Shown: piece after piece, positions 17,012 through 58,895 of the stretch | Numbering within the stretch: position 1 is the stretch's first letter | How the letters are laid out: each line of letters begins with the position of its first letter | Source: Brachybacterium phenoliresistens | GTDB taxonomy: Bacteria; Actinomycetota; Actinomycetes; Actinomycetales; Dermabacteraceae | DNA: 64,000 nucleotides | NCBI RefSeq assembly: GCF_000576425.1 | Contig: NZ_KK069989.1 | Location: forward strand, 62,001-126,000 | Direction of reading: 5' to 3' | The notes under the pieces: generated by a model | Databases searched by the model: none | What the model was told of the DNA's origin: nothing | What the model saw: only the letters and a program-made list of their open reading frames with translations | Program-made: the position numbers and the translations under genes

Positions 17012-17017
17012 GCGGGT

Positions 17018-20187: not shown

Positions 20188-20195
20188 CGGCCGAG

Positions 20196-20221: not shown

Positions 20222-20392
20222 GGTGCGGCACCTGTGACGATCCGGTGTGGATCCCCGGGGCGGGCGGCCGATCGGTGCGCGCGATCGGGACCCGTGCCCG
20301 ATAATGGGGAGGTCGCCCTGCCCGCGGCGCCGGCGCCGCCGGAGGATCGGGCGGGGTGCAGCGACACGGAACGGGACGCTCGGGAGGCGCGC

Positions 20393-21151
20393 ATGGCGGA
20401 CGATGGTGTGCTCTACCGCGTGTACGAGCGGCGCCTGGCGCGGGAGCTGGCCTCGGTGCCGCTGCCGCAGCACCTCGGGGTGATCGTCGACGGCAACCGC
20501 CGCTGGGCGAAGGCCTCCGGGGCGAGCACCGAGGAGGGGCACCGTCAGGGTGCGGCCAAGATCGCAGAGTTCCTCACCTGGTGCGAGGAGCTCTCCATCC
20601 CCCTGGTCACCGTGTGGATGCTCTCCCACGACAACCTGCGCCGCCCCGCCGAGGAGCTCGAGGCGCTGTTCGGGATCATCACCGACACCCTCGAGGAGCT
20701 CACCGACGCCGGCTACGAGGTCCGCCTGACGGGGAACGACGACGTGCTCCCGGCCGAGGTCCGGGAGCGGATCCGCCGCAGGCAGGAGACCGCCCAGGTC
20801 ACCCGCGAGCTCGCGGTGAACCTCGCGATCGGCTACGGCGGCCGCGAGGAGATCGTCGTCGCCGTCCAGGAGCTCGTGCGGGAGATGGGCCAGCGCGGTC
20901 TGGACGCGGAGCAGATCGCCGACGGGATCACCATCGAGGCGATCGGCGAGCACCTGTACACGCGCGGCCAGCCCGACCCGGACCTCATCATCCGCACCTC
21001 CGGCGAGCAGCGCCTGTCCGGCTTCCTGCTGTGGCAGAGCGTGCACAGCGAGTTCTGGTTCTGCGAGACCTACTGGCCCGGCTTCCGGCGGGTCGACTTC
21101 CTGCGCGCCCTGCGGGACTTCTGCAAGCGCGAGCGCCGCTTCGGGGCCTGA
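20393..21151 (+). CDS. cis-Isoprenyl diphosphate synthase (UppS family)
   Basis: 252 residues. It extends isoprenyl diphosphates with Z geometry, toward the lipid carrier for cell-wall synthesis. LGVIVDGNRRWAK contains the catalytic Asp (D33); NLAIGYGGREEIV, PDLIIRTSGEQRLSGFLLWQ and SEFWFCETYWPGF are diagnostic. Actinobacteria often have two paralogues, one giving short (farnesyl-type) and one giving long chains; the sequence alone does not tell me which this is. ATG 20393 with GGGAGG upstream begins just ahead of the conserved core. It is divergent from the hemolysin III gene and followed by the PhoH2 gene. Confidence 0.92.
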   Translation: MADDGVLYRVYERRLARELASVPLPQHLGVIVDGNRRWAKASGASTEEGHRQGAAKIAEFLTWCEELSIPLVTVWMLSHDNLRRPAEELEALFGIITDTLEELTDAGYEVRLTGNDDVLPAEVRERIRRRQETAQVTRELAVNLAIGYGGREEIVVAVQELVREMGQRGLDAEQIADGITIEAIGEHLYTRGQPDPDLIIRTSGEQRLSGFLLWQSVHSEFWFCETYWPGFRRVDFLRALRDFCKRERRFGA

Positions 21152-34750: not shown

Positions 34751-34832
34751 CCCTCAACCCTAGGGGAACGTGCGCAGTGCCTCCCCGTCCGTGGGGGACG
34801 GCGGGAGCATCGGCCCCGTAGAATCGCGTCCC

Positions 34833-35918
34833 GTGGCTCTTACTATCGGAATCGTCGGACTGCCCAACGTCGGCAAGTCCACCCTCTTCAACGCCCTGAC
34901 CCGCGCCGAGGTCCTCGCGGCGAACTACCCGTTCGCGACCATCGACCCCAACGTGGGGGTCGTCCCGCTGCCGGACGCGCGCCTGGGGCAGCTGGCGGAG
35001 ATCTTCGGCAGTGAGCGCCTGGTCCCGGCGACCGTGTCCTTCGTGGACATCGCCGGCATCGTCAAGGGCGCCAGCGAGGGCGAGGGCCTGGGCAACAAGT
35101 TCCTCGCCAACATCCGCGAGGCCGATGCGATCTGCCAGGTCACCCGCGCCTTCTCCGACCCCGACGTGATGCGCGTGGCCGGCAGCGAGGACCCCGCCGG
35201 GGACATGGACACCATCGCCACCGAACTGATCCTCGCCGACCTCCAGACCCTCGAGAACGCGCGCCCGCGCGTGGAGAAGGAGGTCAAGCGCAAGCTCACC
35301 GAGGCCTCCGTGCTCGAGGCCATGGACGCCGCGACCGCCCTGCTGGAGACCGGGAAGACCCTGTTCCAGGGCGCGAAGGCCGCCGGCATCGACGTCGCCG
35401 AGCTGCGCGAGCTGCAGCTCATGACCGCGAAGCCCTTCATCTACGTCTTCAACACCGACGAGGACGGCCTGGCCGACGCCGCCATGCAGCAGCAGCTGCG
35501 CGAGGCCGTCGCCCCGGCCGAGGCGATCTTCCTGGACGCCAAGTTCGAGTCCGAGCTCGTCGAGCTCGACGAGGACGAGGCCAAGGAGATGCTCGAGTCG
35601 ACCGGCCAGGAGGAGTCCGGCCTGGACAAGCTGGCCCGCGTCGGCTTCGACACCCTGGGCCTGCAGACCTACCTCACCGCCGGCCCCAAGGAGTCCCGCG
35701 CCTGGACCATCCCGCAGGGCGCGACCGCCCCGCAGGCCGCCGGCGTCATCCACACCGACTTCGAGCGCGGCTTCATCAAGGCCGAGATCGTCTCCTTCGA
35801 CCAGCTCCTCGAGGCCGGCTCCATGGCCGAGGCCAAGGCCAAGGGCTGGGTCCGCATGGAGGGCAAGGAGTACGTCATGGTCGATGGGGACGTGGTGGAG
35901 TTCAGGTTCAACGTATGA
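34833..35918 (+). CDS. ychF: Ribosome-binding ATPase YchF
   Basis: 361 residues, full length. A universally conserved P-loop protein of the Obg group that prefers ATP and binds ribosomes. [12 protein letters not shown] is residues 6-17; [30 protein letters not shown] and the C-terminal TGS domain ([20 protein letters not shown] ... DVVEFRFNV) follow. GTG 34833 begins the domain at once. The final 27 bases recur degenerately five times downstream, making this gene's 3' end the probable insertion site of the island at 36-47 kb; the gene itself is intact. Confidence 0.97.
35892..35918 (+). repeat. att-like repeat A (3' end of ychF)
   Basis: The last 27 bases of ychF (encoding VVEFRFNV plus stop). 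Related 27-mers at B 40775, C 41648, D 43136, E 45051 and F 46826 lie in the same orientation and mark module borders. It would be the attL side of the most recent insertion. Confidence 0.75.
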
Positions 35919-36302
35919 ATCGTTGCGTATATGAAGGTCAGAGCCTTAGCCGTCCCACGCGTCCGCAAGAGTTTCGGTCACAAGGGCCCGGTCGGGCTGT
36001 TCCCAAAAGGCAGTCACGGGTCTAGTGCTGCAGGTGGGTGCATGTCGGCCGCGAGGCGAGGGTGCGTCACGTGCTTGGGTCGCGTTGTGAGCTGGAGATG
36101 AACGAGCGCGGAGTGAACAACAATAGGGTCATCGCGTGATGATCGTTCGTGGACCGGAGTCGCTGCGCCGGGATGAACAAGTTGCATCGGCCAAATATTA
36201 CGTACTCGGAATGGTTGGCCGCCACGGTGAGTTGTCGCGAAGTTGGCTCGGGCCGCTATGGCTTGGTTGGAGTCGCCCAAAGAATCGACAGGGAGAACGA
36301 CA
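35919..36302. other. Island left junction and leader of the STAND gene
   Basis: 384 bases without a convincing gene between ychF and the STAND NTPase. Composition drops at once from the host's GC-rich pattern to A/T-containing stretches such as CAAATATTACGTACTCGG. It should contain the promoter of the STAND gene (GGGAGA ribosome site at about 36290). No tRNA, integrase or xis-like gene is visible. Confidence 0.6.
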
Positions 36303-39300
36303 ATGAGTGTCACGCCGACGTTGCCTGACGTCGACTTTCGCCGAATCCGACCGTATGGGTCGCCTGCCTCGCGGGCTGATGCTTTTGAAGAGCTTGCTTC
36401 CATTGTTATCCGTGATGGCCTGGTTTCGTGGCCTGAGGGGACCATCTTTCACAGGTTCGGGAACCCGGATGGTGGTCGCGAAGGAAAGGCCGTGCTCCCG
36501 GACGGAAGCGTTTGGGCTTGGCAGGCTAAGTACCTATTCGGGTTTGGTGACAGCGAAATTGGCCAAATCCACCATTCGGTGGTTCGTGTGCTGGAAATGG
36601 AGCCGGACCTAAAGCGGTTCTATATTGCTCTGCCGTACGACCTACCTGCCGGCGATGTCGTAAAGTCGGCGACCAAGCGCAAGTCGGCATTCACGAAGTG
36701 GACAGAGAAGAAGGCTGAGTGGCAGGCAATGGCCACTGACCGTGGGATGAACGTCGAGTTCATTTACGTAGGTGCCCACGAATTTGTCAGCGAGCTAACG
36801 AAGCCCGAGCATGCGGGTCGCCTGCGGTACTGGTTCGAGGCGTCAGTCCTTTCGTCGGAGAATCTGAATCGGCGGCTTTCCGATGTCGTCCTCAAAGTCG
36901 GTCGCCGGTACACGCCCGCGCTTCACGTCGAGGTGGGGGCCGTGCAGGCGCTGGAAGCGCTGGGTCGTACTGACCACTACGTCCGTCGAGTCCGGGTTGC
37001 TCTCGCAGGGCTTCGCGAGGCACGCACCGGAGCCTGGCACCCGCCCAGAGGCGACGAAGAGGCCTTCGCAAGCAGCATCGAGGCATGTAGAAACGCACTC
37101 GTTGAAGCCGAAACCGCGTTGCAGCGATTCTTGGAGGCAGTCACAAGCGCCGGGCCGTTGCCCGATATCATCGACACGGTCCGAGCGGTTGAGCCAGCCG
37201 CCGAGGAAGTCCACCGGCTTCTTCAGGACCGGCACCTCCGCGAAGGCCGCTATTATCACGACCAGGCGGCGTCCTTGTATCACACCTATACTAAGGTCCG
37301 GCACGCGTGCTGGGCCTCGTTGTCGCTGTTGCGCTCCGCCGACACGCAGACCGCCCGGGACGGTCGCGTTCTGATGACCGGGCGGGCGGGGGTTGGCAAG
37401 ACTCACCTGTTCTGCGATGTGGCGTCACGCCGCGTCTCGTCGGGGCATCCCACGGTTGTTGTCCTTGGCCAGGACTTTGTTGCCGGCAAGCCCCTCCTTT
37501 CTCAAATCGGTGACCTGGCCCAGATCGACGGGACCCTCGACGAGGTCCTTAGTGTCTTCGATGCTGCGGGCGAGGCGGCGGGCTGCTTCACCATGTTGAT
37601 GATCGACGCGATCAACGAGGGAGCAGAGGCTGAACGCTGGGTCGATGACTTGCGCGTCCTTGCCGGCTCCGTCGATCGTTATCCGCATGTCGTACTGGCA
37701 GTCTCCTGCCGAACCGAGTTCGTTGAGTCAGTCGTTGGTAATGCGGAGGGTTTTCCGCGGGTTGAGCATCAAGGTTTCTCCGAGGCGATGAGCGAGGCTG
37801 TCGACCGTTACACGGAGGAGTACAATCTCGAACGCTTAACCTTCCCAGTCCTGAATCCTGAGTACGGGAACCCACTGTTTCTGAAACTTGCCTGTGAGGC
37901 CCTCTCGACACTCGGTCACACGCGTTTCGCTTTGGGAAGCGCAGGTCTCACCACGGTCTGTGGGGCTTTCCTCGAGGCCGTCAACAAGCGCCTGGCCGCT
38001 CCGACCAGGTGTGACTACGACCTCGCAACCAATCTGGTTCAGGCGGCCGTGCGCCAACTTGCTGAAGCTGGCCCAGGGCCCTACCCGCGGTCTGTCGCGG
38101 CCGCCATTACTGAGCAACTGCTGCCGGGCACTACGTGGTCCAAAAGCCTCTTTCTCGGTCTCCTTCGCGAGGGGGTCCTCATGGACACGTACAAGGGTCA
38201 AGTCGCATTCAGTTATCAGCGCCTTGGGGACGTCTATCGTGCTGTTCTACTCGCCGAGAAGACGCCGAGTGACCTGACCGCTTGGTATCAGGGACTGGGG
38301 AATGCGGCCTGGGCAGAGCGCGGCACGCTCGGCGCACTCGCCGTCGTCGCTCCCGAAACGCTGGGTGAAGAAGTCATCGACCTCTTCAAGGAACCTGAGA
38401 CGGGAGAGATCAAACACGAAGTCATCGATGCGTTCTTAGAGAGCATCGTGCTGCGCTCGCCACTACATGTCACAGACCGGACCGTCCGCATCGTCGAGCA
38501 ACTTGTCGACTTCGAGGACTGGACCCGTCCAGTCTGGGAAAGGCTCGTACAGGTTGCCTGCGTTCCCGACCATAATCTCAACGCCGACTGGACTCACCGT
38601 CTGCTAAAGGCTCGGGACCTCACGACCCGCGATCTCTCCTGGTCCGAGTGGCTCATCGGATCCACCGACAGCAACGGGTACGAAGATGAAGACGCTGTAA
38701 GCGTCCTGCTTGATTGGGGGTGGCCGAAGGACGCTGACGCCGAGCCGGGCCATTTGCCGGACGACGTATCACGGCTTGCGACGCTCATCCTCGCTTGGAT
38801 GCTCACTACCCCGGATCGCAGAGTGCGTAACCGTGCGACGAAGGCGTTGGTGAGTGTTGGTGAGCGCGGAACAGGCGGATTCGCCCAGGGTCTAGCCGAG
38901 TTCGCGGGTTGCGACGATCCCTACGTCACCGAGCGTCTCGCCGCTGCCGCATGCGCGGTGACCTTGCGCGCCGCCGACCCCGCCACAATTGTCGTTGTCG
39001 CGAATGCAACAGCCGCGATGGTGTCAGCGAGCTGGCCGGAGAACCTCCTGACCCGCGACTACCTGCGCCGGATCTCTGCCTCAGCCCAGGCTCACGGATG
39101 GGACGGTCCAGTATGGCTGCCGCCATACGGTACCGACTGGCCGCCGACCGCGAAGTCCTACGATGAGATTGAAGTGATGGACTCCGCCCCGGAATACCGG
39201 TATGCGTCCATCTGGGGGTCCGTACACGGCCAATTGGGCGACTTCGGCAGATACGTCATCGAGCCTGCCATCGACCATTTCGACGTTCCAGACAAGAAGG

Positions 39301-40505
39301 CACTGCGTCACCTCGTCGAGAGGATCGTCTTCACACGTGTTCTCGATCTCGGCTGGACCCCGGAGAAGTTCGATGGCATCGAGCGTCGACGCCATGTCAG
39401 GCACGATGGGCCTGTCGAGAGATTCGGCAAGAAGTATCAGTGGATTGCTTTCTACGAAGTTTTAGGAAGGCTGGCCGACAACTTCCAGCTCAAGGAGCGG
39501 TGGAGCATCAGCGGCGACCCATTTCCCTTCGAGTACGCTGAGCAACTCGTGTACCGCGACGTCGATCCCACTGTCCTCATCCACGGTGGCCGCTCGGGCC
39601 CAATGGAGGGTGAGCCTCCCTGGTTCGCGCCCGTCACGGCCACCTTCCCCGATGAGGTCCCGAATGAATACCCGGAGGATCTCGATGGAGTGCCTGACCC
39701 CCTGGACCTAATCCACGTGGTCTCACCTACCGGCACGCAATGGCTGTCGTTGATCAGGCACGAAAGCTGGAAACAGGCGCATCCGCCCGAGATCACCGCA
39801 CTGAAGGCACCCAATCTGAACGTTTGGATGCAAGTCCGCGGCTACCTCGTTCCGACTGCCGATGTCCCTGCACTTCTCGACTGGTTGAAGGGAACCGACG
39901 GCGAAGGCCAAGACTGGGATGGGCGCTGGATGGCGGAGAACGCGGACGTCCACTCCCGACTCCTAGGAGCGCTTCCAGGCTCTCCGGACTGGGACTGGGC
40001 CGACGGGAACGCCGAGCCACGATCCATCGGCGATCGCGCTATTCCAGCTGACCTGTATCAACCGATTGCGTGGTACGGCGGAACTGGAGCCGACCGCGAC
40101 GATGCGGGTACCGATGAACCCACCGGATTCGTACCTAGCAGAATGCTCTTCGACCTCCTGCAGCTACGTGCGGGGCGTGACTTCTGTTGGACCGACGACA
40201 TTGGGCTTGCCGTTCAGGACCCCTCGGCCGGGATGAACGAGTCCTCCACTCTTCTCATGCGCCGAGACTTGAGCGACCGTCTCGCTGAGGCTGGCTACAG
40301 CCTGTTTTGGACTGTCCTCCTGAACAAGGAGAGACACGACCATAGCTATGGTCGACCAAGCGAAGATTATCGGTGGGTCAGCGCCAGCGCCTCGTATGTT
40401 CTGGAGGGTCCCGCGGTTGAACTCGTCGCATCGAATGCCTGGCACTGTCGTCCCGGCGAAGGCCGGACCAAGACCATCACATGGGGTCTCAAGACCTCTG
40501 AATGA
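36303..40505 (+). CDS. Avs-like STAND NTPase with N-terminal PD-(D/E)xK nuclease motif
   Basis: 1400 residues. N-terminal region (about 1-200): FEEL (E29/E30), GNPDGGREG (D56) and WAWQAKY (Q74-A-K76) resemble the Mrr/Cap4-type nuclease core. After a helical linker comes a STAND P-loop domain: Walker A TGRAGVGKTH (around G360-K366), Walker B MLMIDAINEG (D435), then LAVSCRTEF. The remaining ~900 residues are largely helical and variable, as expected for a ligand-sensing region. This order matches antiviral STAND proteins of the AVAST type that recognise phage proteins and then cleave DNA. It lies alone in island module 1, with lower GC and more A/T-ending codons than any neighbour, so recent transfer is likely. 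ATG 36303 has GGGAGA upstream; the frame also extends to 36243 without a ribosome site. No accessory gene. Confidence 0.75.
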   Translation: MSVTPTLPDVDFRRIRPYGSPASRADAFEELASIVIRDGLVSWPEGTIFHRFGNPDGGREGKAVLPDGSVWAWQAKYLFGFGDSEIGQIHHSVVRVLEMEPDLKRFYIALPYDLPAGDVVKSATKRKSAFTKWTEKKAEWQAMATDRGMNVEFIYVGAHEFVSELTKPEHAGRLRYWFEASVLSSENLNRRLSDVVLKVGRRYTPALHVEVGAVQALEALGRTDHYVRRVRVALAGLREARTGAWHPPRGDEEAFASSIEACRNALVEAETALQRFLEAVTSAGPLPDIIDTVRAVEPAAEEVHRLLQDRHLREGRYYHDQAASLYHTYTKVRHACWASLSLLRSADTQTARDGRVLMTGRAGVGKTHLFCDVASRRVSSGHPTVVVLGQDFVAGKPLLSQIGDLAQIDGTLDEVLSVFDAAGEAAGCFTMLMIDAINEGAEAERWVDDLRVLAGSVDRYPHVVLAVSCRTEFVESVVGNAEGFPRVEHQGFSEAMSEAVDRYTEEYNLERLTFPVLNPEYGNPLFLKLACEALSTLGHTRFALGSAGLTTVCGAFLEAVNKRLAAPTRCDYDLATNLVQAAVRQLAEAGPGPYPRSVAAAITEQLLPGTTWSKSLFLGLLREGVLMDTYKGQVAFSYQRLGDVYRAVLLAEKTPSDLTAWYQGLGNAAWAERGTLGALAVVAPETLGEEVIDLFKEPETGEIKHEVIDAFLESIVLRSPLHVTDRTVRIVEQLVDFEDWTRPVWERLVQVACVPDHNLNADWTHRLLKARDLTTRDLSWSEWLIGSTDSNGYEDEDAVSVLLDWGWPKDADAEPGHLPDDVSRLATLILAWMLTTPDRRVRNRATKALVSVGERGTGGFAQGLAEFAGCDDPYVTERLAAAACAVTLRAADPATIVVVANATAAMVSASWPENLLTRDYLRRISASAQAHGWDGPVWLPPYGTDWPPTAKSYDEIEVMDSAPEYRYASIWGSVHGQLGDFGRYVIEPAIDHFDVPDKKALRHLVERIVFTRVLDLGWTPEKFDGIERRRHVRHDGPVERFGKKYQWIAFYEVLGRLADNFQLKERWSISGDPFPFEYAEQLVYRDVDPTVLIHGGRSGPMEGEPPWFAPVTATFPDEVPNEYPEDLDGVPDPLDLIHVVSPTGTQWLSLIRHESWKQAHPPEITALKAPNLNVWMQVRGYLVPTADVPALLDWLKGTDGEGQDWDGRWMAENADVHSRLLGALPGSPDWDWADGNAEPRSIGDRAIPADLYQPIAWYGGTGADRDDAGTDEPTGFVPSRMLFDLLQLRAGRDFCWTDDIGLAVQDPSAGMNESSTLLMRRDLSDRLAEAGYSLFWTVLLNKERHDHSYGRPSEDYRWVSASASYVLEGPAVELVASNAWHCRPGEGRTKTITWGLKTSE

Positions 40506-40843
40506 ACACCGGTGTTCGTTGTCCGGCTGCTCTTCCTGGATCTACGACCTCGCGCTGGTGGGCGAGAGGCGGAGTGGTCTGGACGCATTGAACGAGATAG
40601 ACACTGACCGCGCCGCGTACAGCCGCAAACCGGTGGGGGACTTGTCAACATGGACTTCGACGGTGAGCCGCTGTTCGCGCCGCAAGCACACGAGGATCAG
40701 GCGTGACGCTCGGAAGCGGAGAGGGCAGGTACCTGTCGTAGTCGCACCGAGCAGACTGCCCTGCGTGTGGGCATGTGGTGGAGTTCCGCTTCAACGTGTA
40801 GCCGAGCCCTGCTCCTGCGGCCCCATCTGTCGCAGGGTGAGGA
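40506..40843. other. Gene-free border between modules 1 and 2
   Basis: 338 bases downstream of the STAND gene. The only feature is att-like repeat B at 40775-40801 with about 35 bases upstream of it that also resemble the flank of repeat C. Short ORFs on both strands show no family sequence. Confidence 0.6.
40775..40801 (+). repeat. att-like repeat B
   Basis: GTGGTGGAGTTCCGCTTCAA then CGTGTAG; 21 of 27 bases equal the ychF end (copy A) and the frame still reads [12 protein letters not shown]. The upstream bases encode a DCPACGH-like stretch shared with copy C. Confidence 0.75.
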
Positions 40844-41491
40844 CTATCGCGGTCGGCCAGGTCGGTCGTGCCGCCGACGCGGCGGGTCGACGATGTCCCG
40901 GTTGCGCGGCAACTCGCCTCCGAATGTCAGCGGTAGGGCGCGGGCACGGTCGATCCGGGCATCGGTGATCGCCTGGAGGTGCAGGTGCGGTTCGGTGCTG
41001 TTCCCGGAGTTCCCGCATTCGCCGAGCATGTCACCGGTGCGTATGTCTTGGCCGAGCCGTACGGCGATGCTGCCGCGCGCGAGATGGCAGAGGGCGACGA
41101 TCACACCGCCCTGCTCGATGAACACGTGGTTCCCCGCGAGGCCGGCCCAGCCGCCCGCCACGCGCTGCCGTTGGGTGAGCGCGTAGCCGAGGGAGGAGAA
41201 CCCCCGGTAGGCGTGGTGGTCGGGCTCGCCGTCGTGCACGGCGACGACGACCCCGTCCAGCGGTGACAGGATCGGGCGACGGAATCCGGTAAAGCGATCT
41301 GGGGGCTCTGCGCGGAGGAGTGAGCCGAGGCCGAACAGGGCTGTTCGCCCGGTGTCGGAAACTGGCACGAAGTCGATCGCGTACGTCGTGGCGAACACCG
41401 TCGTCCCGTGGCTGGGCACCCTGTTGGCAGGGCTGTTCTGCGCAAGCCACCGCTGGGTGAACGGGTACTCGAGGTTGACGGGAGTGGTCAT
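40844..41491 (-). CDS. M23-like peptidase-domain protein without signal peptide
   Basis: 215 residues. The fold has the LytM/M23 arrangement: an early His/Asp region (PSHGTTVFATTYAIDFVPV), PILSPLDGVVVAVHDG, NHVFIEQGGVIVALCHLARGS, and GNSGNSTEPHLHLQ with the catalytic/zinc HLH. No signal sequence or membrane segment precedes the domain, so it is predicted cytoplasmic or non-classically released, unlike normal cell-wall M23 enzymes. It is the only gene of island module 2, on the opposite strand to the att-like repeats at its two sides. The C-terminal 25 residues are Arg/Pro-rich and run toward repeat B. Confidence 0.75.
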   Translation of the reverse strand: MTTPVNLEYPFTQRWLAQNSPANRVPSHGTTVFATTYAIDFVPVSDTGRTALFGLGSLLRAEPPDRFTGFRRPILSPLDGVVVAVHDGEPDHHAYRGFSSLGYALTQRQRVAGGWAGLAGNHVFIEQGGVIVALCHLARGSIAVRLGQDIRTGDMLGECGNSGNSTEPHLHLQAITDARIDRARALPLTFGGELPRNRDIVDPPRRRHDRPGRPR

Positions 41492-41647
41492 AGCACCGTC
41501 TCTCTGCGTCTATCTGATGCTACCGACGACGCCAGCCGCGACCTTCTGGCAGAGGCAGGCAGACTGAGTGGCGCTCGCTGTTCGACAGAACCAGCGTGCG
41601 ACGGTATCTGTGCCGTGTGCCCGACAGACTGCCCCACGTGCGGCGAC

Positions 41648-41674
41648 GTGGAGGAGTTCCGGTTTAACGTCTAG
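41648..41674 (+). repeat. att-like repeat C
   Basis: 27 bases encoding VEEFRFNV-stop; adjacent upstream sequence reads CPTDCPTCGD and parallels copy B. Downstream bases (GACGGG then CGTTATA) recur after copy F. It also abuts the higBA promoter. Confidence 0.75.
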
Positions 41675-41682
41675 CGTTATTG

Positions 41683-41699
41683 ACGGGTCCCGTTATATC
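41683..41699 (+). promoter_or_regulatory. higBA promoter and palindromic operator
   Basis: The 11-base perfect palindrome ACGGGTCCCGT (41683-41693) directly abuts the -10 TATATC (41694-41699). The higB GTG at 41708 lies eight bases further, so the message would be leaderless and repressed by antitoxin binding at the palindrome. Confidence 0.6.
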
Positions 41700-41707
41700 C
41701 TGGTTGC

Positions 41708-41989
41708 GTGATCAGATCGTTCGGAAGCAAGGACACCGAACGGCTGTGGCGTCGTGAGCGGGTGCGCTCGCTGGATCCTCGGATCCAACGTGTCGCGCTG
41801 CGCAAGCTTCGTCAGGTGGGATCCGCGGAGTCGCTCGACGACCTCCGCGTCCCACCAGGGAACCGGCTCGACGCGCTCAAGGGCGACCGGGCCGGCCAGC
41901 ACAGCATCAGGATCAATGACCAGTGGCGGATCTGCTTCGTGTGGACCGATCCAGGACCGGAGGAGGTGGAGATCGTTGACGACCACTGA
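41708..41989 (+). CDS. higB: HigB/RelE-type toxin
   Basis: 93 residues, the usual size for HigB mRNA interferases that cleave ribosome-bound mRNA. Family features: FGSKDTERLW near the start, LDDLRVPPGNRLDALKGDRA and the C-terminal sheet HSIRINDQWRICFVW with the conserved Arg and basic residues. It precedes its antitoxin, the order typical of higBA, and overlaps it by 14 bases. GTG 41708 follows the promoter immediately. Confidence 0.92.
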   Translation: MIRSFGSKDTERLWRRERVRSLDPRIQRVALRKLRQVGSAESLDDLRVPPGNRLDALKGDRAGQHSIRINDQWRICFVWTDPGPEEVEIVDDH

Positions 41990-42278
41990 CAAGATCGCGC
42001 CGATCCATCCCGGGGAGATCCTCATGGAGGACTTCATCGAGGGTCTCGGCATCACGCAGAACAAGCTCGCCGTGTCCATCGGGGTGCCGCCGCGGCGGAT
42101 CAACGAGATCGTGCACGGCAAGCGAGGCATCACGGCGGACACGGCGCTGCGTCTCGCGAAGTACTTCGGCACCTCGGCCGAGTTCTGGATCAACCTGCAG
42201 AGCCACTACGAGCTTGACCGTGCAGAGGACCTCGCGGGAGAGCAGATCGCGTCGATCACGCCGCTGAGCGTCGCGTGA
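41976..42278 (+). CDS. higA: HigA-type antitoxin
   Basis: 100 residues. The XRE-type helix-turn-helix domain begins IHPGEILMEDFIEGLGITQN and includes RRINEIVHGKRGITADTALR and FGTSAEFWINLQ, all standard for HigA/VapI antidotes. TTG 41976 is chosen because GGAGGAGG lies 9-16 bases before it, inside the toxin gene; the frame upstream is the shifted toxin sequence. It would neutralise HigB and repress the palindrome at 41683-41693. Its stop overlaps the next gene's GTG (GTGA), so a third protein is co-translated. Confidence 0.92.
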   Translation: MTTTDKIAPIHPGEILMEDFIEGLGITQNKLAVSIGVPPRRINEIVHGKRGITADTALRLAKYFGTSAEFWINLQSHYELDRAEDLAGEQIASITPLSVA

Positions 42279-43078
42279 ACTCGCTTCACCGGCAGGCCGT
42301 GTTCGGTCAGCACCGCCATCCCGTGAGGTTCGACTGGGGCCCGATGGGGGCGCAGATGGCAGCAGCGGATCTCGCGGTTGTCGTCGACGTCCTGAGCTTC
42401 TCGACGTCGGTGTGTATCGCGGTCGAGCGTGGGACGATTGTCTTCCCCTACCGGTGGAAGGGGGTCGGAGCAGCCGACTTTGCTCGTGACCACGATGCTG
42501 CCCTGGCCGTCGGTCGTCTCGAGTCGGCTCGGCAGGATTCGCCGACTCCTCTCTCGCTGTCGCCGGCGGTGCTTCTCACCGCACCCGGCGTTCCCAGACT
42601 CGTCCTGCCTTCACCGAACGGATCGACTATCGCCACGATCCTGGACGAGTCAGGAGCCCACGTCGTGGTCGGCTGCCTCCGGAACGCGGCCGCGGTGGCG
42701 GATGTTATCGCTGCGCGATTGGAGCTTGGCGACACGGTGGCCGTGGTCGCGGCCGGTGAGCGGTGGCCCGACGACGGCTCGCTGCGCCCTGCACTCGAGG
42801 ATCACCTCGGTGCGGGGGCCGTGCTCTCGGCGCTTGCGGGTCTGGGCTACCGGGATGCGATGAGCCCTGAAGCCTCTGCTGCCGCCGACCTCTTCGACGT
42901 GGTGAGGCCACGCTTGGCCCAGGCCATGCTCGAGTGCGTTGGCGCTCAAGAGCTGGAAGTGATGGGTTTCCGCCCTGACGTTGAAGTGGCAGCCGCGCTG
43001 GACGTCTCGCAGGTAGTCCCGGTGCTCGTCGACGGGGCCTTTCGGGTGCCCATCGACGAAGCCTCCTGGGACGGGTAG
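42275..43078 (+). CDS. ComB-family (2-phosphosulfolactate phosphatase-like) protein
   Basis: 267 residues. Strong ComB-family appearance: VVVDVLSFSTSVCIAVERG (Asp and Ser region of the active site), LVLPSPNGSTIA, VVVGCLRNAAAVADVI and a final Asp/Val-rich segment. ComB acts in coenzyme M synthesis in archaea, but bacteria without that pathway also have homologues of unknown substrate. The GTG overlaps the higA stop by four bases, so it is translationally coupled to the toxin-antitoxin pair, an unusual third partner. It ends 57 bases before repeat D. Confidence 0.8.
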   Translation: MNSLHRQAVFGQHRHPVRFDWGPMGAQMAAADLAVVVDVLSFSTSVCIAVERGTIVFPYRWKGVGAADFARDHDAALAVGRLESARQDSPTPLSLSPAVLLTAPGVPRLVLPSPNGSTIATILDESGAHVVVGCLRNAAAVADVIAARLELGDTVAVVAAGERWPDDGSLRPALEDHLGAGAVLSALAGLGYRDAMSPEASAAADLFDVVRPRLAQAMLECVGAQELEVMGFRPDVEVAAALDVSQVVPVLVDGAFRVPIDEASWDG

Positions 43079-43135
43079 TCCCTGCTGCGCTGTCGGGTCA
43101 TCAGGTGTTCTCCAGAGGTTGATACGTGCCGGAAC

Positions 43136-43162
43136 GCGGTGGATTTCCGATTCAACGTGTAG
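43136..43162 (+). repeat. att-like repeat D
   Basis: 27 bases encoding AVDFRFNV-stop. The upstream CGTGCCGGAAC is shared with copy E, while copies B and C share a different flank, suggesting two element families. Confidence 0.7.
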
Positions 43163-43189
43163 ACGGTGTGTGCCGGGGAACCGGTCAGC

Positions 43190-43810
43190 TCAGACCAGCG
43201 CGTGCTGGGCCCGGTAGGCATCTCGGCAGGCGACGGCGCAGAATCCGATGGTCTCGCCATCGTGCTCGAGCGTGATCGCGTGTGGTCCTGGACGGACCAG
43301 CATGCCGCACATGGGGTCGACCAGCATCCCATCGGGAAACGGTTCGCTGCGGCCTTCTTTCACGGCTTCCTGGTAGTCGGCGACCATTGCTTGCAGGACC
43401 TCGTCGGCGGTCGACGCCTTTCCGTCCATGCCGATGCTGCCGTCGACGATGCCGTTGATCAGCACCCACAGAGAGCCGGGTGCACGAGACCAGCCGTGCT
43501 CGTTGTCGACGCGACGGACGGCGGCCTTGATCACTCCGATCATGTGGCGAGCGGTCTCGTCCTGCCATGCCTGAGGCACGGACACGGAGGCGATCACGGG
43601 CGGCGCATCCTTGCTGTCTACCGGACCATCACCGGTGTGCCAATCGGTGAGCTCGCGAAAACCCAGATGGGCCATCTGCCGGGCCCGGCGCATCGTCTCG
43701 GTGGGCGCGTGGTCATCGCTGAGCGCGATGTTCCAGATGTGCTCGACGATCCTGCTGCGGTCCGCTTCGCTGAAGCACCCGGCAGGGCATGAGATCTCGA
43801 TCAGAATCAT
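43190..43810 (-). CDS. Tautomerase-like protein with C-terminal YHS domain
   Basis: 206 residues. The first ~65 residues (MILIEISCPAGCFSEADRSR) and a second segment (PPVIASVSVPQAWQDETARH and following) look like two 4-oxalocrotonate tautomerase-type units, but the usual Pro at position 2 is Ile. The last 40 residues form a YHS-type metal-binding domain: VDPMCGMLVRPG and IGFCAVACRDAYRA, with three Cys. I do not know this fusion as a characterised family. It is divergent, across 107 bases, from an MmyB-type regulator that probably controls it. Confidence 0.65.
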   Translation of the reverse strand: MILIEISCPAGCFSEADRSRIVEHIWNIALSDDHAPTETMRRARQMAHLGFRELTDWHTGDGPVDSKDAPPVIASVSVPQAWQDETARHMIGVIKAAVRRVDNEHGWSRAPGSLWVLINGIVDGSIGMDGKASTADEVLQAMVADYQEAVKEGRSEPFPDGMLVDPMCGMLVRPGPHAITLEHDGETIGFCAVACRDAYRAQHALV

Positions 43811-43917
43811 TGTCTTCTCCTTCGACTCGGATGCTCCCAGAGTCCTGGAGATGCTGCACGGTGTCGATGACGTCCGAGGTCATGGATCGGCCACCCAGGT
43901 GCTGCGAGACTGACCAC

Positions 43918-44730
43918 ATGAGTACTGTCCATGCTCCTGTCGGCGCACTGCTTCGGCGATGGAGGATGCGGCGACGCCGCTCGCAGCTCGATCTCGCTGT
44001 CGCTGCGGACGTGTCCACCCGGCATCTGAGCTACCTCGAGACGGGGAAGGCAGCTCCCAGCCGCGCCATGATCGCCCGGCTCTGCGATGAACTGGACGTC
44101 CCGCTCCGCGATCGGAACACGCTGCTGCTCGCAGCAGGGCTTGCTCCCGAGCACACCGAACACCCCTGGTCGGAGCTGGGGATCGCACGCGCTGCGATCC
44201 AGGCGGTTCTCGATGGGCATGATCCGAACCCGGCGGTCGCGATCAATGCCCGTTGGGACGTCCTGGCCGCGAACCGGGCCATGTCCTCCATGCTGTCGAG
44301 CCTTCCCACGACCGTCGCCGGCCCGCCGGTGAACATGCTTCGCGCCACGCTCCACCCCGACGGAATCCTCGGCCAGCTGGATGACCCGGGACACTGGCGC
44401 GACAACGCCCTGCGCCGAGCCCGGCGACAGTACGAACACACCGCCGATCCTGGCCTGAAGGCTCTGATCGCCGAGATCGAGCACTATCCGATCCCGCCCG
44501 CCGCCGGCCAGAACATCGAGGCTGACGAACTCGTCGTGCCCATGCGGCTGCGTACCCCGCTCGGCGAGCTGTCCCTCTTCTACGCAGTGACCGTCTTCGG
44601 GGCACCACGCGACATCACCATGGACGAACTCGCGATCGAGTCATTCTTCCCCGCAGATGAGGCCACCCGCGCCCTTCTGCCGCAGCTGATCGCCGGTGTC
44701 CCGGGTGGCGGATCTCCTGCCGACGGATGA
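43918..44730 (+). CDS. XRE-family regulator with MmyB-like ligand domain
   Basis: 270 residues. Helix-turn-helix at about 8-62 (LLRRWRMRRRRSQLDLAVAA, then VSTRHLSYLETGKAAPSR). From ~100 onward is an MmyB-type domain with NPAVAINARWDVLAANRAM and LSLFYAVTVFGAPRDITMDE, which in relatives binds fatty-acid-like ligands. Such regulators usually repress or activate the adjacent divergent gene, here the tautomerase/YHS protein. The C-terminus overlaps the start of a truncated hydrolase frame. ATG 43918 follows GACTGACCAC with no clear ribosome site. Confidence 0.85.
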   Translation: MSTVHAPVGALLRRWRMRRRRSQLDLAVAADVSTRHLSYLETGKAAPSRAMIARLCDELDVPLRDRNTLLLAAGLAPEHTEHPWSELGIARAAIQAVLDGHDPNPAVAINARWDVLAANRAMSSMLSSLPTTVAGPPVNMLRATLHPDGILGQLDDPGHWRDNALRRARRQYEHTADPGLKALIAEIEHYPIPPAAGQNIEADELVVPMRLRTPLGELSLFYAVTVFGAPRDITMDELAIESFFPADEATRALLPQLIAGVPGGGSPADG

Positions 44731-45088
44731 AGGCCTCGTCCCGCGCTTCGACGCCGCAGTCGTGCAGAGCACGATCGATGCCGTGCACGAGCCCCGAGGG
44801 GACGAATGGGAGGCTCTGACGGTTCCGACGCTCGCGATCTTCGCGAAGCACGGGATGGTCAGCGGTGCCGACAAGGATGAGCTGATCCGGCGCAGGCCCG
44901 AGACGGACAGAACGGATCTCGGCCGAGGAGGCCGCGATGCGCATCTCGACGCCTTCGATGAGTGGATCGACGTGCTCCGTCGCCGGCTGTCCCGCGGCCG
45001 ATTCGGCGAATCTCGCACCGGTACCCGATGCCGTCGGTCCGTGCCGGAACTCGGTGGAGTTCCGCGTCAACGTCTGACGGCTCGGTGA
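44696..45088 (+). pseudogene. Alpha/beta-hydrolase C-terminal fragment
   Basis: The frame from 44696 reads like the last third of an alpha/beta hydrolase: FDAAVVQSTIDAVHEPRGDE, WEALTVPTLAIFAKHGMV, and the histidine segment DAHLDAFDEWIDVL (about 44936-44985). The N-terminal part with the nucleophile elbow is absent; upstream is the 3' end of the MmyB gene. After ~44990 the frame runs out of homology into att-like repeat E. Most likely a remnant cut off by a deletion or insertion; not expected to be active. Confidence 0.6.
45051..45077 (+). repeat. att-like repeat E
   Basis: 27 bases encoding SVEFRVNV-stop, preceded by CGTGCCGGAAC as in copy D. It closes module 4 directly behind the hydrolase fragment and abuts the start of the membrane-protein gene of module 5. 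Confidence 0.7.
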
Positions 45089-45102
45089 GCTACGGTACGC
45101 GA

Positions 45103-45567
45103 GTGGTCCCCCGTCGATCGAAGCGGAATCAGTCACCTCTCGCCCGGAAGCGCTGGGCGGTGCTTGCTGGCACCGCGGTGCTCGTGGTCGGTGGGGGCGC
45201 GATGGGCCTGGCCTGGGGTGTCTGGGGCGTGTTCGTGGCCGTGAGCGCCCTGACGGTGGTGGGGTCGACGGCCCCGGGCCTGCTGCTTCTGCCGCGGTCT
45301 GCGGTGACGCAGATGCTGGTCATGCAGGTGGCGTCGTGTGCGATGTGGTTCATGCTCATCGGGTGGGGGCTGGTCATGCTGCTGTACCCCGAGTACACCG
45401 TCGGGTGGCGATTTCCGGGGAAGAGCGGTGGCGGCATGCGCGTGGAAGAAGTGGACGATGCATGGTGGATCGGTTGGTCCGTGCTCGGCATGGGGGTCTT
45501 CTGTGCGGCACTGATCATCACGGTCGAGATACTCCCGAGCATCCGCAGGGCACGAGCGGAGCAGTGA
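45103..45567 (+). CDS. Small membrane protein of island module 5
   Basis: 154 residues; no family recognised. A basic head (RRSKRNQSPLARKRW) leads into about four hydrophobic segments (roughly 17-36, 40-58, 66-90 and 124-144), with a periplasmic-side stretch containing YPEYTVGWRFPGKSGGG. TACGGT at 45091-45096 is a plausible -10, making GTG 45103 a leaderless start; GTG 45085 is the alternative. It starts only 25 bases after att-like repeat E. Confidence 0.6.
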   Translation: MVPRRSKRNQSPLARKRWAVLAGTAVLVVGGGAMGLAWGVWGVFVAVSALTVVGSTAPGLLLLPRSAVTQMLVMQVASCAMWFMLIGWGLVMLLYPEYTVGWRFPGKSGGGMRVEEVDDAWWIGWSVLGMGVFCAALIITVEILPSIRRARAEQ

Positions 45568-45849
45568 AGCCGGGAGCGTCGTGGCCTGCATCGTGCTGTC
45601 CGCTGATCGTGCGGTCTCGGCATCGGCGGGGGAAGACCCGCGTGCGAACCCGCCTGACCGTGCCCGGTGCGCGAGCTGAAGGGCGCGCTCAGCCGCAGTC
45701 GCGACCGGATGGAGGCTGCACTCCGGGACGGGTACGGCGGCCCCATCGCGACTCTGGGCGTGTTCAGCTGACGGAGACGACGTGTCGGTTCTCAAGCCGG
45801 CCTGGCACAGGTGCGCAGAAGTGCACCGTCGTCCGGTCGGAGGAGCACC

Positions 45850-46722
45850 GTGATCGGTGTGCGCGTCGACGGCCTCGGCTACGCTGTCCAGGTGCGCCAC
45901 CAGCAGATCCTCGACAAGCTCGCGGTGGGAGCGGTGGCTCCGACCGCGCGGGACGAAGTGCGGATCCTGGCGCAGAAGAGCTTCTACTCGGCACGGCACC
46001 AGGGCCTGGAAGGCGCTCAGCACGCCGACGTCGTGCCCGCCATGAAGGAGCGGTGGCACTTCGTGCTCGACGCGGCCCGCCCGGGGACGGACGCCTCCGA
46101 GAGCGAGCGGATGAACGCCTACAAGGTCGCGATCGCCCTGGCCACCTCATTGCACGAGGTCGGATTGACCGATCCTGAGCTCACGGAGCTGGCCGTCGAC
46201 GGAATCCACGAGCTGAACGACGCCGTGTGGCTGGGGGAGGACTTCCTGCGCCGAACCGACGACATGATCGCGCTGCTGCGGTCCTCACCGGCCCCGCTCA
46301 CCAGGAAGCCGACCACGCGGGAGACCATCACGTTCACCCGAGGTGGCGATCTCCTCGCGATCCGGCTGCGCAGGCGTTGGGTGGTCGGGCATGTCCACGT
46401 CGTCGATGGTCCGAACGCGTATCCGCATATCGAGCTGTACGAGCGCACCTTCGCTCGTCGGCCCGACGCTTCCGAGGTCGTGGGGACTCGCGCGTGGGGG
46501 TATGCGTATCTCGGCCGCGACCAGGCGAACGTCACCCGCCTCATCGTGTCGGGGCTGCGCCACCTGCCGGATCCGGCAGAGCAGATCCATCTCATCGCGA
46601 GCGGAGTCACGGTGCCGCCGGACAACGCGCATCTGTTTGACGAGCAGATCATCGGCACCCATGTGGACCTGTTCGAGCTGCTCGAGATGGCGCGATCCGT
46701 AGGCGGCGAGACGGAGCTCTGA
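45850..46722 (+). CDS. Orphan protein of island module 5
   Basis: 290 residues from GTG 45850; I do not recognise a family. It is soluble, with a helical N-terminal half (QILDKLAVGAVAPTARDEVR, LATSLHEVGLTDPELTELAV) and a mixed alpha/beta C-terminal half beginning ITFTRGGDLLAIRLRRRWVV and containing VVDGPNAYPHIELYERTF and GTRAWGYAYLGRDQ. No signal peptide, membrane helix or Cys cluster. Codon use is coherent and the frame is long, so I consider it real. Its placement between att-like repeats E and F suggests an accessory or defence role, but no function can be assigned. Confidence 0.6.
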   Translation: MIGVRVDGLGYAVQVRHQQILDKLAVGAVAPTARDEVRILAQKSFYSARHQGLEGAQHADVVPAMKERWHFVLDAARPGTDASESERMNAYKVAIALATSLHEVGLTDPELTELAVDGIHELNDAVWLGEDFLRRTDDMIALLRSSPAPLTRKPTTRETITFTRGGDLLAIRLRRRWVVGHVHVVDGPNAYPHIELYERTFARRPDASEVVGTRAWGYAYLGRDQANVTRLIVSGLRHLPDPAEQIHLIASGVTVPPDNAHLFDEQIIGTHVDLFELLEMARSVGGETEL

Positions 46723-46825
46723 CGCCGACGCACGCGGTTTCCGCCCTCGGCGGTATTGCAGCCTGCGCCGAGCGCCGCGAGGGTCGATCTCGTCGGCCCG
46801 ACGTGATGGTTCCGGCCGTGGAGAC

Positions 46826-46852
46826 GTCGTGGAATTCCGGTGTGACGTCTCG
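46826..46852 (+). repeat. att-like repeat F (most degenerate)
   Basis: GTCGTGGAATTCCGGTGTGA then CGTCTCG: it keeps the GTGGA-TTCCGG-ACGTCT skeleton but the stop is lost. Bases 46853-46877 (GACGGG, CGTTATA) match the downstream arm of copy C, which supports a common origin. Confidence 0.5.
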
Positions 46853-56843: not shown

Positions 56844-56874
56844 ACGGCACGGCCCCGGAGCGTGGCGGCGTGCG

Positions 56875-57498
56875 TCAGGGGGAGGCGCAGCGCGCGGCGA
56901 TCGTGCGCGCGGCCTCCTCGACGACGCGCCGCTGCTCCTCCTCCGTGATCGTCCAGGTGCCGTGCACGAGGCGAGGCCAGAACACCGCGGAGGCGATCAT
57001 CCCCAGGAACTGGGCCGATATGAGGTCCGGATCCTCGATGTCGGCCCGCCCCGCCGCGTGCTCCGCCCGGAGGTAGCGCCCGAGGGCGGCGAGCACCGGC
57101 AGGGTCCCGAAGTCGAAGGTGCGCTCCCGCAGCTCCGGGAAGGTCGGCGACTCGGCGATCACGGCGCGCATCAGGGAGATCATGCGCGGGCGGGTCAGCA
57201 GCTCCGTGTACGCGCGGCCCAGCTCCACCAGGCCGCCGAGGAGATCTCCCGTCGGAGGGTCGACGACCTCGGCGTCGGGCGAGCCGCCCGCGGCGAGCAC
57301 CGTCGCCTCGAACAGCTCGGCCTTCGTCGGGAACTGCTTGAACAGGGTCGCGCGGGAGACGCCCGCCTCCCGGGCGACCCGGGCCAGGGACGTGCGGTCG
57401 TACCCGGACTCGAGGAACAGTCGCATCGCCGCGTCGAGGATCGCAGCGCGGTTCGTCGCGGCGATCCCCTGGTGGTACGGGGAGGGCTGGGCTGGCAC
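56875..57498 (-). CDS. TetR-family regulator
   Basis: 207 residues. N-terminal TetR helix-turn-helix at about 14-60: NRAAILDAAMRLFLESGYDR, TSLARVAREAGVSRATLFKQ, FPTKAELFEATV. The C-terminal ligand domain is variable. It is divergent from a RibD-type reductase gene, and two identical-half palindromes stand between them (57518-57580), so it most likely represses both genes. GTG 57498 is the start directly ahead of the conserved part. Confidence 0.92.
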   Translation of the reverse strand: MPAQPSPYHQGIAATNRAAILDAAMRLFLESGYDRTSLARVAREAGVSRATLFKQFPTKAELFEATVLAAGGSPDAEVVDPPTGDLLGGLVELGRAYTELLTRPRMISLMRAVIAESPTFPELRERTFDFGTLPVLAALGRYLRAEHAAGRADIEDPDLISAQFLGMIASAVFWPRLVHGTWTITEEEQRRVVEEAARTIAARCASP

Positions 57499-57517
57499 GG
57501 GTCGAGTATCCCATGAG

Positions 57518-57580
57518 GTGAGTCGGTTGACTCACCACTGGTGGCCCGGTACCGTCTGAGAGGTGAGTCGAGTGACTCAC
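57518..57580. promoter_or_regulatory. Twin TetR operators
   Basis: GTGAGTC-GGTT-GACTCAC (57518-57535) and GTGAGTC-GAGT-GACTCAC (57563-57580) are two perfect 18-base palindromes with identical 7-base arms, 45 bases apart. One is next to the regulator start, the other 24 bases before the reductase ATG. Confidence 0.85.
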
Positions 57581-57603
57581 CATCTACGGGACAGGAGTCG
57601 ATC

Positions 57604-58146
57604 ATGGCTCGGACGATCATCCACGCGACGATGACCCTCGACGGGTACATCGCGGAATCCGACGGAGGGGTCGACTGGATGTTCGGTCGCCCGTCCGCCC
57701 CCGAGGACGACGCGGTCGTCCAGAAGGTCATCGCACGCATCGGCGCGGTGGTCGGGGGAGCGAATGCGACGCAGACCATCGAGGACGGCGAGATCCCGTA
57801 CGGCGGCATGCTGAAGGTGCCCGTGTTCCTCATGACCCGTACCGAGCACGCACCGATCGAGCGCGACGGCATCACCTACACCTTCGTCGTCGACGACATC
57901 GCGCAGGCGGTCGCCGCGGCGGAGCGGGCGGCGGGCGAGGGCTGGGTCAGCCTGCTCGGAGGGAGCATCGCGCGGCAGTGCCTCCGGCTCGGGCTGGTCG
58001 ACGAGCTCCACCTCGACGTCGCGCCGGTCCTTCTGGGGGAGGGGATCCCGCTGTTCGCCGGGCTGGGACGGCGCATCGAGCTCGAACGCCTCGAGACCTC
58101 GGCCTATGCGAGCGAGACCCACCTCCGCTACCGCGTCCTGCGCTGA
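57604..58146 (+). CDS. RibD C-terminal/dihydrofolate-reductase-like protein 2
   Basis: 180 residues. ATMTLDGYIAESDGGVDWMF, VVGGANATQTIEDGEIPYGG, VSLLGGSIARQCLRLGLVDE and LHLDVAPVLLGEGIPLF show the family; the central motif LLGGSIA takes the NADPH phosphate. Under direct control of the adjacent TetR protein through the 57563-57580 operator. ATG 57604 follows GGGACAGGAG. Confidence 0.88.
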   Translation: MARTIIHATMTLDGYIAESDGGVDWMFGRPSAPEDDAVVQKVIARIGAVVGGANATQTIEDGEIPYGGMLKVPVFLMTRTEHAPIERDGITYTFVVDDIAQAVAAAERAAGEGWVSLLGGSIARQCLRLGLVDELHLDVAPVLLGEGIPLFAGLGRRIELERLETSAYASETHLRYRVLR

Positions 58147-58223
58147 GCTCCGCGTGCCGGCGGCCAGGGGCGGCGGGCTGTGCGGCACTGCGCTGCGCGC
58201 CGGGCGCTTCGTAGACTGGGCGC

Positions 58224-58895
58224 ATGTCCGATGATCCCGGAACCCCCGGCGGCACCGCGGAGCGCCCCGCGATCTTCTTCCGCGACGCCGCGGAGTTCCG
58301 CGGCTGGCTCGAGCGCCACCACGCCACCGAGACGGAGCTGTGGATGGGGCTGAGGCTCGCCCACGTCCCGGGCCGCGGGCTCACCTGGGGCGAGGCCGTC
58401 CTCGAGGCGCTGTGCTTCGGGTGGATCGACTCGGTCTCCCAGAAGATCGACGCTGACTCGCGCCGCCAGCGCTGGACGCCGCGCAAGGCCGCCAGCACCT
58501 GGTCGAACGTCAACATCGCGCACGTCGAGCGGCTGACGGCGGCCGGGCGGATGCACCCGGCCGGCATCGCCGCGTTCGAGCGCCGCACGGCCGCCCGCTC
58601 GGGCACCTACTCGCACGAGAACCCGGAGGCGGAGCTCACCGCCGATCTCCAGGCCGTCCTCGACGCCTCGCCCGGCGCCCTCGCATTCCTCGCCGCGGCG
58701 ACCCCCGGGTACCGCAAGGCCGTGCGGCACTGGATCATGTCCGCCAAGCAGCAGGCCACGCGCGAGCGGCGGGCGCGCCAGCTGGTCGCCTGCTGCGAGG
58801 CCGGCGAGCTCATCCCGCCGCAGCGTCCCGGCCGCACCCCGGCATGGCTCGCCCGCGCGGCGGCAGCGGCGGGAGGCTCCGCTCCGCGCAGCTGA
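58224..58895 (+). CDS. YdeI/OmdA-family protein
   Basis: 223 residues. Family features are FRDAAEFRGWLERHHATETE, LTWGEAVLEALCFGWIDSVS and FTPRKAAS-like WTPRKAASTWSNVNIAHVER. Bacteriocin-protection (OmdA) domain proteins of this type are widespread; the molecular role is not known. Cytoplasmic, with an Arg-rich helix in RERRARQLVACCEAGELIPP. The C-terminal tail is Ala/Gly-rich. Single gene. Confidence 0.82.
   Translation: MSDDPGTPGGTAERPAIFFRDAAEFRGWLERHHATETELWMGLRLAHVPGRGLTWGEAVLEALCFGWIDSVSQKIDADSRRQRWTPRKAASTWSNVNIAHVERLTAAGRMHPAGIAAFERRTAARSGTYSHENPEAELTADLQAVLDASPGALAFLAAATPGYRKAVRHWIMSAKQQATRERRARQLVACCEAGELIPPQRPGRTPAWLARAAAAAGGSAPRS

Follow-up and report, generated by a model that had tools for sequence, protein, structure and literature searches.

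Small mobile cassettes collect serially at the 3′ end of ychF in Brachybacterium phenoliresistens and other actinobacteria

Islands of the staphylococcal cassette chromosome (SCC, including SCCmec) and Enterococcus cassette chromosome (ECC) types insert at the 3′ end of the conserved gene rlmH, use large serine recombinases (LSRs), carry very variable cargo and can be tandem or composite; excerpts of the report on ECC give att sites of about 50 bp that contain a dyad in attR and also in the circular form (PMC6222049). Serial direct repeats downstream of the target are also described for the Dehalococcoides islands at ssrA (serine recombinase DsiB), where, in the portion of the report consulted, a 15-bp motif that does not align with the target precedes each repeat and 15 islands lack an integration module (PMC3146451, in which ICESt1-related tandem accretion of cis-mobilizable elements is also cited). 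The locus described here lies downstream of ychF in Brachybacterium phenoliresistens, within a stretch of 64,000 nucleotides (assembly GCF_000576425.1, contig NZ_KK069989.1, positions 62,001 to 126,000; hereafter the window), where copies of the ychF 3′ end bound five consecutive segments of accessory DNA, termed cassettes. Two further kinds of array invite comparison. Integrons and integrase-less cassette arrays consist of small cassettes of varied cargo, each with one site, in a single orientation beside a fixed primary site. In cis-mobilizable accretion, a tyrosine-integrase system involving deleted integrative and conjugative elements (ICEs), integrase-less att-flanked elements pile up behind a conserved gene.

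Many actinobacteria collect small mobile cassettes serially at the ychF end, each insertion replacing the last few codons of the gene. Judged from sequence comparison, the window probably holds an SCC-like, integron-like array of integrase-less mobile cassettes, built by repeated serine-recombinase insertion at the ychF 3′ end and stranded in this genome. As in SCC, insertion is at the 3′ end of a conserved gene and att repeats stand at both ends, as seen in a complete element (L260) and an empty/occupied pair of genomes (G441/G421). However, the target is ychF and not rlmH, the phylum is different, the cassettes are mostly 0.6–3 kb in size and mostly lack a recombinase, there are up to ten site matches per genome, and the C-terminus of the target protein is visibly replaced. 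The window element has no ccr-type genes; elements of its relatives carry an LSR with PF00239 + PF07508. Dehalococcoides islands differ in their RNA-gene target, confinement to one genus, rdhA cargo and, in many islands, an integration module; ychF arrays of different species have exact cassette-scale units in common, whereas the excerpts of PMC3146451 mention none for the islands. The ychF system also differs from both in its breadth across actinobacterial families. Like accretive islands, the window array is tandem, in one orientation, with common att sites and members without an integrase; unlike ICESt1-type accretion, its members are small cassettes instead of deleted ICEs. A pneumococcal prophage also adjoins ychF, but the parts of the reports seen place its attB on the promoter side, at an unrelated 14–26-nt site (PMC6375853, PMC8637289). 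No report of insertion at the ychF 3′ end in actinobacteria was found in the open-licence literature, mostly judged from listings, and ychF does not occur in PMC12884075.

The target gene ychF occupies 34770..35918 of the window on the plus strand (ORF as listed, true start uncertain; Pfam YchF-GTPase_C, E 2.3e-37 on 34851–35918). Each site core is defined as starting at the GT of the final Val codon preceding EFR, which in ychF itself lies at 35895. An earlier note on this DNA had claimed that the last 27 bases of ychF recur five times in the same orientation, and repeat finder, profile and pattern search all bear this out, with further cores at 40778, 41651, 43139, 45054 and 46829. The repeat finder returned five in-register 51-nt copies (starting at 35869, 40752, 41625, 43113, and 45028; one is the reference copy, to which the others are 61–80% identical), and the degenerate sixth was recovered by the profile and by the pattern with two mismatches. 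Translation agrees with the further claim that the first four downstream copies still encode a short YchF-like tail (E/D-F-R-F/V-N-V-stop, as does ychF) and that the last has lost it. On the plus strand, site 1 (35895..35918, EFRFNV-stop) is the ychF tail at the attL/attB position; it is followed by site 2 (40778..40801, EFRFNV-stop), site 3 (41651..41674, EFRFNV-stop, core dinucleotide changed to GA, with GAG in place of the GTG of the other copies), site 4 (43139..43162, DFRFNV-stop), site 5 (45054..45077, EFRVNV-stop, one substitution), and the distal site 6 (46829..46852), which reads VEFRCDVSHR-stop, the in-register stop being lost. Copies 2–6 also share 26–28 nt of upstream sequence that differs from the corresponding part of ychF. 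This "arm", a P-type half-site where it closes cassette 1 (40750..40777), also closes cassettes 2 (41623..41650), 3 (43111..43138), 4 (45026..45053), and, weakly, 5 (46801..46828), all on the plus strand. The repeat is concentrated here rather than scattered over the genome: a 20-mer pattern with at most two mismatches matched nine times in the whole 4.19-Mb genome, six of these inside the ladder, and the reversed pattern gave no match under the same settings.

The earlier note also held that insertion rebuilds the end of ychF and pushes the old end downstream. A pair of relatives displays exactly this, and supports serial insertion as the source of the ladder, as do LSR elements at ychF (see below). 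In G441 the site is empty: ychF ends VEFRFNV-stop, with the flank directly after it. In the occupied relative G421, cassettes totalling 4,954 bp begin exactly at the tail and separate ychF from the same flank (98.4% identical over 4,485 bp); ychF now ends VEFRSGLTSGGKK-stop, and the native tail, identical letter for letter to that of G441, stands displaced before the flank. Replacement of the tail and displacement of the old one are thus seen directly by comparison of two genomes whose ychF regions are 95.7% identical. The third base of the Val codon moves with the displaced tail, which places the exchange at or left of the GT in this GTn codon, so that insertion replaces the last codons of ychF. 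Relatives with fewer modules were expected under this scheme; besides the cassette-free G441, the same-genus G245 carries the counterpart of window cassette 5 next to ychF (77.5% identity over 552 bp, spanning the first ~550 bp of the cassette, with homology beginning at the core). In the window lineage, therefore, four cassettes stand between cassette 5 and ychF. Upstream of ychF, identity between G421 and G441 drops to 89–90% in blocks between stretches of 95.6–95.7%, hinting at recombination around the hotspot.

The GT is also a centre of symmetry. Over 90 internal sites with GT, the best dyad centre within 14 bp on either side is GT exactly (5.62 of 11 pairs, random 3.12), while 23 ychF ends score only 3.00 there and reach a higher value, 5.52, at offset −7. 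The excerpts of PMC6222049 report dyads of this kind in the att sites of ECC. An attC-like RNA hairpin was considered and rejected: RNAalifold found zero conserved pairs in 27 sites (single sites look hairpin-like by eye; no attC model was run), and the symmetry is kept only as a DNA dyad.

Comparison between species shows the cassette to be the moving unit, with exact ends. A 1,167-bp cassette is common to G412, G418, and G443 (99.3–99.5% identity) with different neighbors, a 3,653-bp cassette to G418 and G427 (99.6%), and a 1,254-bp cassette to G434 and G443 (99.9%; directly 3′ of ychF in the latter). All three have exact ends and no LSR, and ychF itself is only 87–91% identical in the species pairs concerned. 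In four of the five pairs sharing full-length cassettes at 99.3–99.9% identity, array position differs. Among the ends of homology segments (at least 95% identity and 200 bp, ends at the ychF core excluded), 30 of 44 fall within 25 bp of a core, compared with a random mean of 1.1 and a maximum of 6 in 2000 draws; these derive from 13 aligned segments, some with one end far from any core, and are not all independent. A higBA cassette starting at the tail is adjacent to ychF in G413, G417, and G444 and internal elsewhere, including in the window.

The hotspot is widespread. Extra copies of the gene's own tail (at most five mismatches in 23) are found downstream of 17 of 80 named ychF loci, with none of the 80 having one upstream or on the opposite strand. 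A profile raises the number to 18 of 80 (E < 1e-3; one opposite-strand match, E 0.86), partly by construction, since the window and 16 of these same loci supplied its 30 training sites; the count free of training is 17 of 80. Across the class, 347 of 394 genomes match the site model, and 50, from 16 family codes, have at least two matches, a number counted by eye from the table that does not in itself prove adjacency to ychF. Twenty class regions were selected among the best-matching ones; ychF was present in 18, and each of these had another site downstream. Within the genus, 34 of 38 genomes match, 26 of them at least twice (including a few weak matches elsewhere and G437, with its two on different contigs), with a maximum of ten in one genome. 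The 89 intervals between neighboring sites in 33 genus regions range from 137 to 15,112 bp (median 1,451), 64 of them measuring 580–3,100 bp. Genus members differ in how many sites they have and in what their cassettes contain, and the uniform gene order of vertical inheritance, which the earlier note had set against its own proposal, is not what is seen.

As the earlier note had stated, the window contains no integrase: profile scans gave no LSR and no Xer-like match in it, although the Xer profile also missed a divergent integrase in L059 and weak tyrosine integrases could escape it. The window genome has two PF00589 tyrosine recombinases, which are presumably the XerC and XerD proteins, and a 245-aa frame with a single resolvase match. 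Four of the 16 array genomes searched have only two tyrosine recombinases, presumably this pair. The candidate enzyme comes from elsewhere. The tail pattern occurs in 11 IMG/VR contigs, in four of which a serine recombinase of 449–470 aa starts 34–44 nt left of the site, and all three tested of these four have Resolvase and Recombinase domains. A Resolvase N-terminal domain followed by a Recombinase domain (PF00239 + PF07508) is present in the LSRs of L102, L098, L260, G427, and L061. L260 is a complete element of the kind that the earlier note had proposed to look for: ychF (1–1086) ends VEFRHGQASKSKS, a replaced tail, the LSR lies at 15253–16617, and an arm and an EFRFNV copy follow from 16652. 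Full or broken relatives of this LSR lie 3′ of ychF in L029, L061, L075, and G427. The genus regions contain one full LSR (G427) and two relics (G415 and G420), the latter being N-terminal pieces beside sites in a phage-like placement, in a stretch 99% identical between both genomes; LSR fragments also occur in L065 and L078.

The arms connect these enzymes to the cassettes. A profile of 77 non-redundant genus arms (17.6 bits) scores the arms of the four LSR-bearing viral contigs at 12.9, 6.9, 16.0, and 17.0 and those of 17 of 18 cassettes from other genera at 8.9–27.5; the values for ychF itself, taken from four genomes, are −0.4 to 3.4. This association and the geometry of the sites point to an LSR as the probable recombinase for the cassettes. 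A second class of elements, of tyrosine-integrase type, also aims at the ychF end. In contigs L094, L097, L104, and L099, a tyrosine integrase of ~250 aa lies next to a ychF-like core (confirmed by Pfam in L094, L104, and L099), and in L094, L097, and L104 the likeness to ychF continues left of the core. Their arms score −6.8 to −20.6.

A cassette has a short coding tail (E-F-R-x-x-x-stop) at its start and an arm of ~28 nt at its end. In the proposed mechanism, a circle joining arm and tail would recombine with the ychF end at the GT of the Val codon before EFR, so that the incoming cassette would give YchF new last codons and the old tail would shift downstream behind the cassette arm. An LSR of the kind found beside similar arms in phages and in ychF elements would act in trans on LSR-free cassettes; as the window genome has no LSR, its array would be stranded. 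Both co-excision with a neighboring phage and transfer in trans are possible routes by which LSR-free cassettes may travel. A native-like tail mimicking EFRFNV would keep ychF usable, the next cassette would land in the same place, and arrays would accumulate. Elements bearing an LSR would bring a longer basic tail, closing the site.

Tail types fit parts of this scheme. The tails seen at ychF include FRFNV, FRFSN, FRFAV/AL, and longer basic ones. In 98 internal genus tails, the third codon position holds most of the departures from the majority (69/47/171 over the three positions), which would be expected of tails that have to code on insertion or were coding until recently. Basic tails were counted at ychF in nine genomes and at none of 112 internal sites; a false match in G435, beside a true FRFNV tail, was dropped, L027 (FKSGLTSGGKK), missed by the pattern, was added, L011 and G414 are apparently one genome, and the pooled sets overlap (G245 and L135 are one locus). 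The five elements with a full or long LSR and a visible ychF tail (L029, L061, L075, G427, and L260) all have long, basic tails. A common replaced YchF C-terminus (FRTGLTSGGKK-like), alike at the nucleotide level, is seen in the distant actinobacteria L011, L027, L029, L061, and L075; such a C-terminus is an insertion footprint visible in annotation.

Several observations weigh against serine-recombinase accretion as set out above. The window genome has no PF07508 match and no protein with a Recombinase domain, and no LSR was found in the 20 class regions fetched. The arm of one cassette from outside the genus (L032) scores only 0.3. Four of the nine basic-tail genomes (L011/G414, L027, L146, and G421) show no LSR in the stretch read, and in L078 an LSR fragment lies 3′ of a ychF ending FRFNVT, which together weaken the idea of a closed tail. 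Tail quality does not decay with rank from ychF (Spearman 0.05, p 0.61), contrary to the simplest ladder. The right flank of the array has four matches in the genus, all away from array ends, and so no common flank is seen. Finally, some integrases adjoining the ychF end are tyrosine recombinases: in L018 (Myceligenerans) one lies directly 3′ of ychF (11261–12499, PF00589 E 6.1e-21), and the 10 kb read contains no further copy of the tail; in L059 (Gordonia) an AICE-like (actinomycete ICE) element 3′ of ychF (11098–20834; arm score 4.9) encodes a replication protein, RepSA, and matches tyrosine integrases weakly; and in L102, a phage contig (TerL), a tyrosine integrase and an LSR stand on opposite sides of one ychF-like site (1386–4007). 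These three represent a minority option.

The cassettes could instead be decayed remnants of full-size LSR prophages or islands serially inserted at ychF, made small by deletion and none of them self-moving. The relics beside the G415 and G420 sites, the fragments in L065 and L078, the 10 of 89 intervals longer than 5.5 kb and the transposases in the cargo would all suit this account. However, different species share the LSR-free cassettes of 1,167, 1,254, and 3,653 bp at 99% full-length identity, the first and third at different positions, and exact shared ends and spread as units are not expected of deletion remnants, which makes this origin unlikely. It is less likely still that a tyrosine recombinase, either a phage or AICE integrase or host XerCD, made the ladder. 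Integrases beside a ychF-like core (L094, L104, and L099) and those of L059, L102, and L018 speak for the first version, and the presence of only two tyrosine recombinases in the array genomes mentioned above speaks for the second; but the arms of L094, L097, L104, and L099 are unlike the cassette arm, the window genome offers only its two PF00589 proteins, and the ychF-end site does not seem to resemble dif.

A true integron, in which the ychF end would serve as the primary site and each arm as an attC site, is disfavored and appears very improbable. Small cassettes in one orientation beside a fixed primary site are common to both, as is cargo of toxin–antitoxin, GNAT, and defence genes. In contrast to integrons, the primary site here is coding sequence, the end of ychF, and each cassette brings a coding tail; the window genome has no third tyrosine recombinase and hence no IntI candidate, the 27 sites lack the conserved pairing of a structured attC, and exchange and dyad are at GT, not in a GTTRRRY box. 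Finally, ordinary vertically inherited accessory DNA, with repeats arising by chance or as gene-conversion copies of the ychF end, has only the shortness of the repeat in its favor and can be dismissed with near certainty given the genome-wide pattern count and its reversed control, the 99% identical cassettes in divergent hosts and the empty/occupied pair G441/G421.

The five cargo modules of the earlier note broadly stand, with two labels refined; the cargo ORFs lie on both strands although site orientation is uniform. Cassette 1 (4,883 bp, 35895..40777, plus strand, bounded by site cores) encodes what had been called a STAND NTPase and is now assigned as an Avs2-type STAND antiviral NTPase (36243..40505, plus strand, start codon uncertain; PADLOC Avs2, E 9e-284; no Pfam match at E 0.01). 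Cassette 2 (873 bp, 40778..41650, plus) carries an M23 peptidase-like protein on the minus strand (40844..41491; PF01551, E 5.8e-12). In cassette 3 (1,488 bp, 41651..43138, plus), all three genes are on the plus strand: a HigB-like toxin (41708..41989; PF05015, E 3.2e-15), a HigA-like helix-turn-helix antitoxin (41985..42278, frame as scanned, start uncertain; HTH_3, E 1e-10), and a comB-like gene, now refined to PF04029, 2-phosphosulpholactate phosphatase (42275..43078; E 2.3e-20); the first ~620 bp, containing higBA, also occur in arrays of other genus members. Cassette 4 (1,915 bp, 43139..45053, plus) contains a minus-strand ORF (43190..43810), for which the former label of tautomerase/YHS finds no Pfam match, and a plus-strand MmyB-like helix-turn-helix regulator (43918..44730; MLTR_LBD, E 5.2e-29). 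Cassette 5 (1,775 bp, 45054..46828, plus, bounded by site cores) has a membrane-type ORF, judged so by eye (45091..45567), and an orphan ORF (45844..46722), both on the plus strand and without a Pfam match. Further right, window positions 56873–58875, 10–12 kb from the last site, match sequence inside cassettes of G435 (76%, 1,309 bp) and G417 (78%, 643 bp); accessory DNA may therefore continue past site 6.

Cargo across the genus arrays was scanned in 132 ORFs chosen from 211 of at least 110 aa. The 25 families listed by PADLOC include Avs2, type I restriction, AbiD, PifA, and candidate systems, while Pfam identifies TetR regulators (6), GNATs (5), dehydrogenases and transposase or rve domains. 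In other genera the cargo includes PIN and HepT-like proteins, TIR-TPR and a PD-(D/E)XK nuclease.

Returning to serine-recombinase accretion, it is tempting to speculate on a wider reading, held tentatively and at somewhat less than even confidence, in which the ychF system is a serine-recombinase counterpart of the integron across the surveyed actinobacterial class. Native-mimic tails would keep one attB reusable, and arrays might grow, shuffle, and swap single cassettes between species, with phage recombinase supplied in trans. Arm and mimic-tail sites would be donor-like and ychF the permanent acceptor, so that a single enzyme could carry out insertion as well as excision with no need of a directionality factor; the basic tails of LSR elements would close the site, and the YchF C-terminus would be continually rewritten. 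This raises the question of how one gene end can serve as a reusable landing site for a normally one-way enzyme while the C-terminus of a conserved GTPase is swapped. The conserved site is usable for large-scale mining of such cassettes. The ychF end appears to be a recurrent, addressable place where actinobacteria gather and trade single accessory genes, among them Avs2, restriction systems, abortive-infection genes, higBA, and GNATs.

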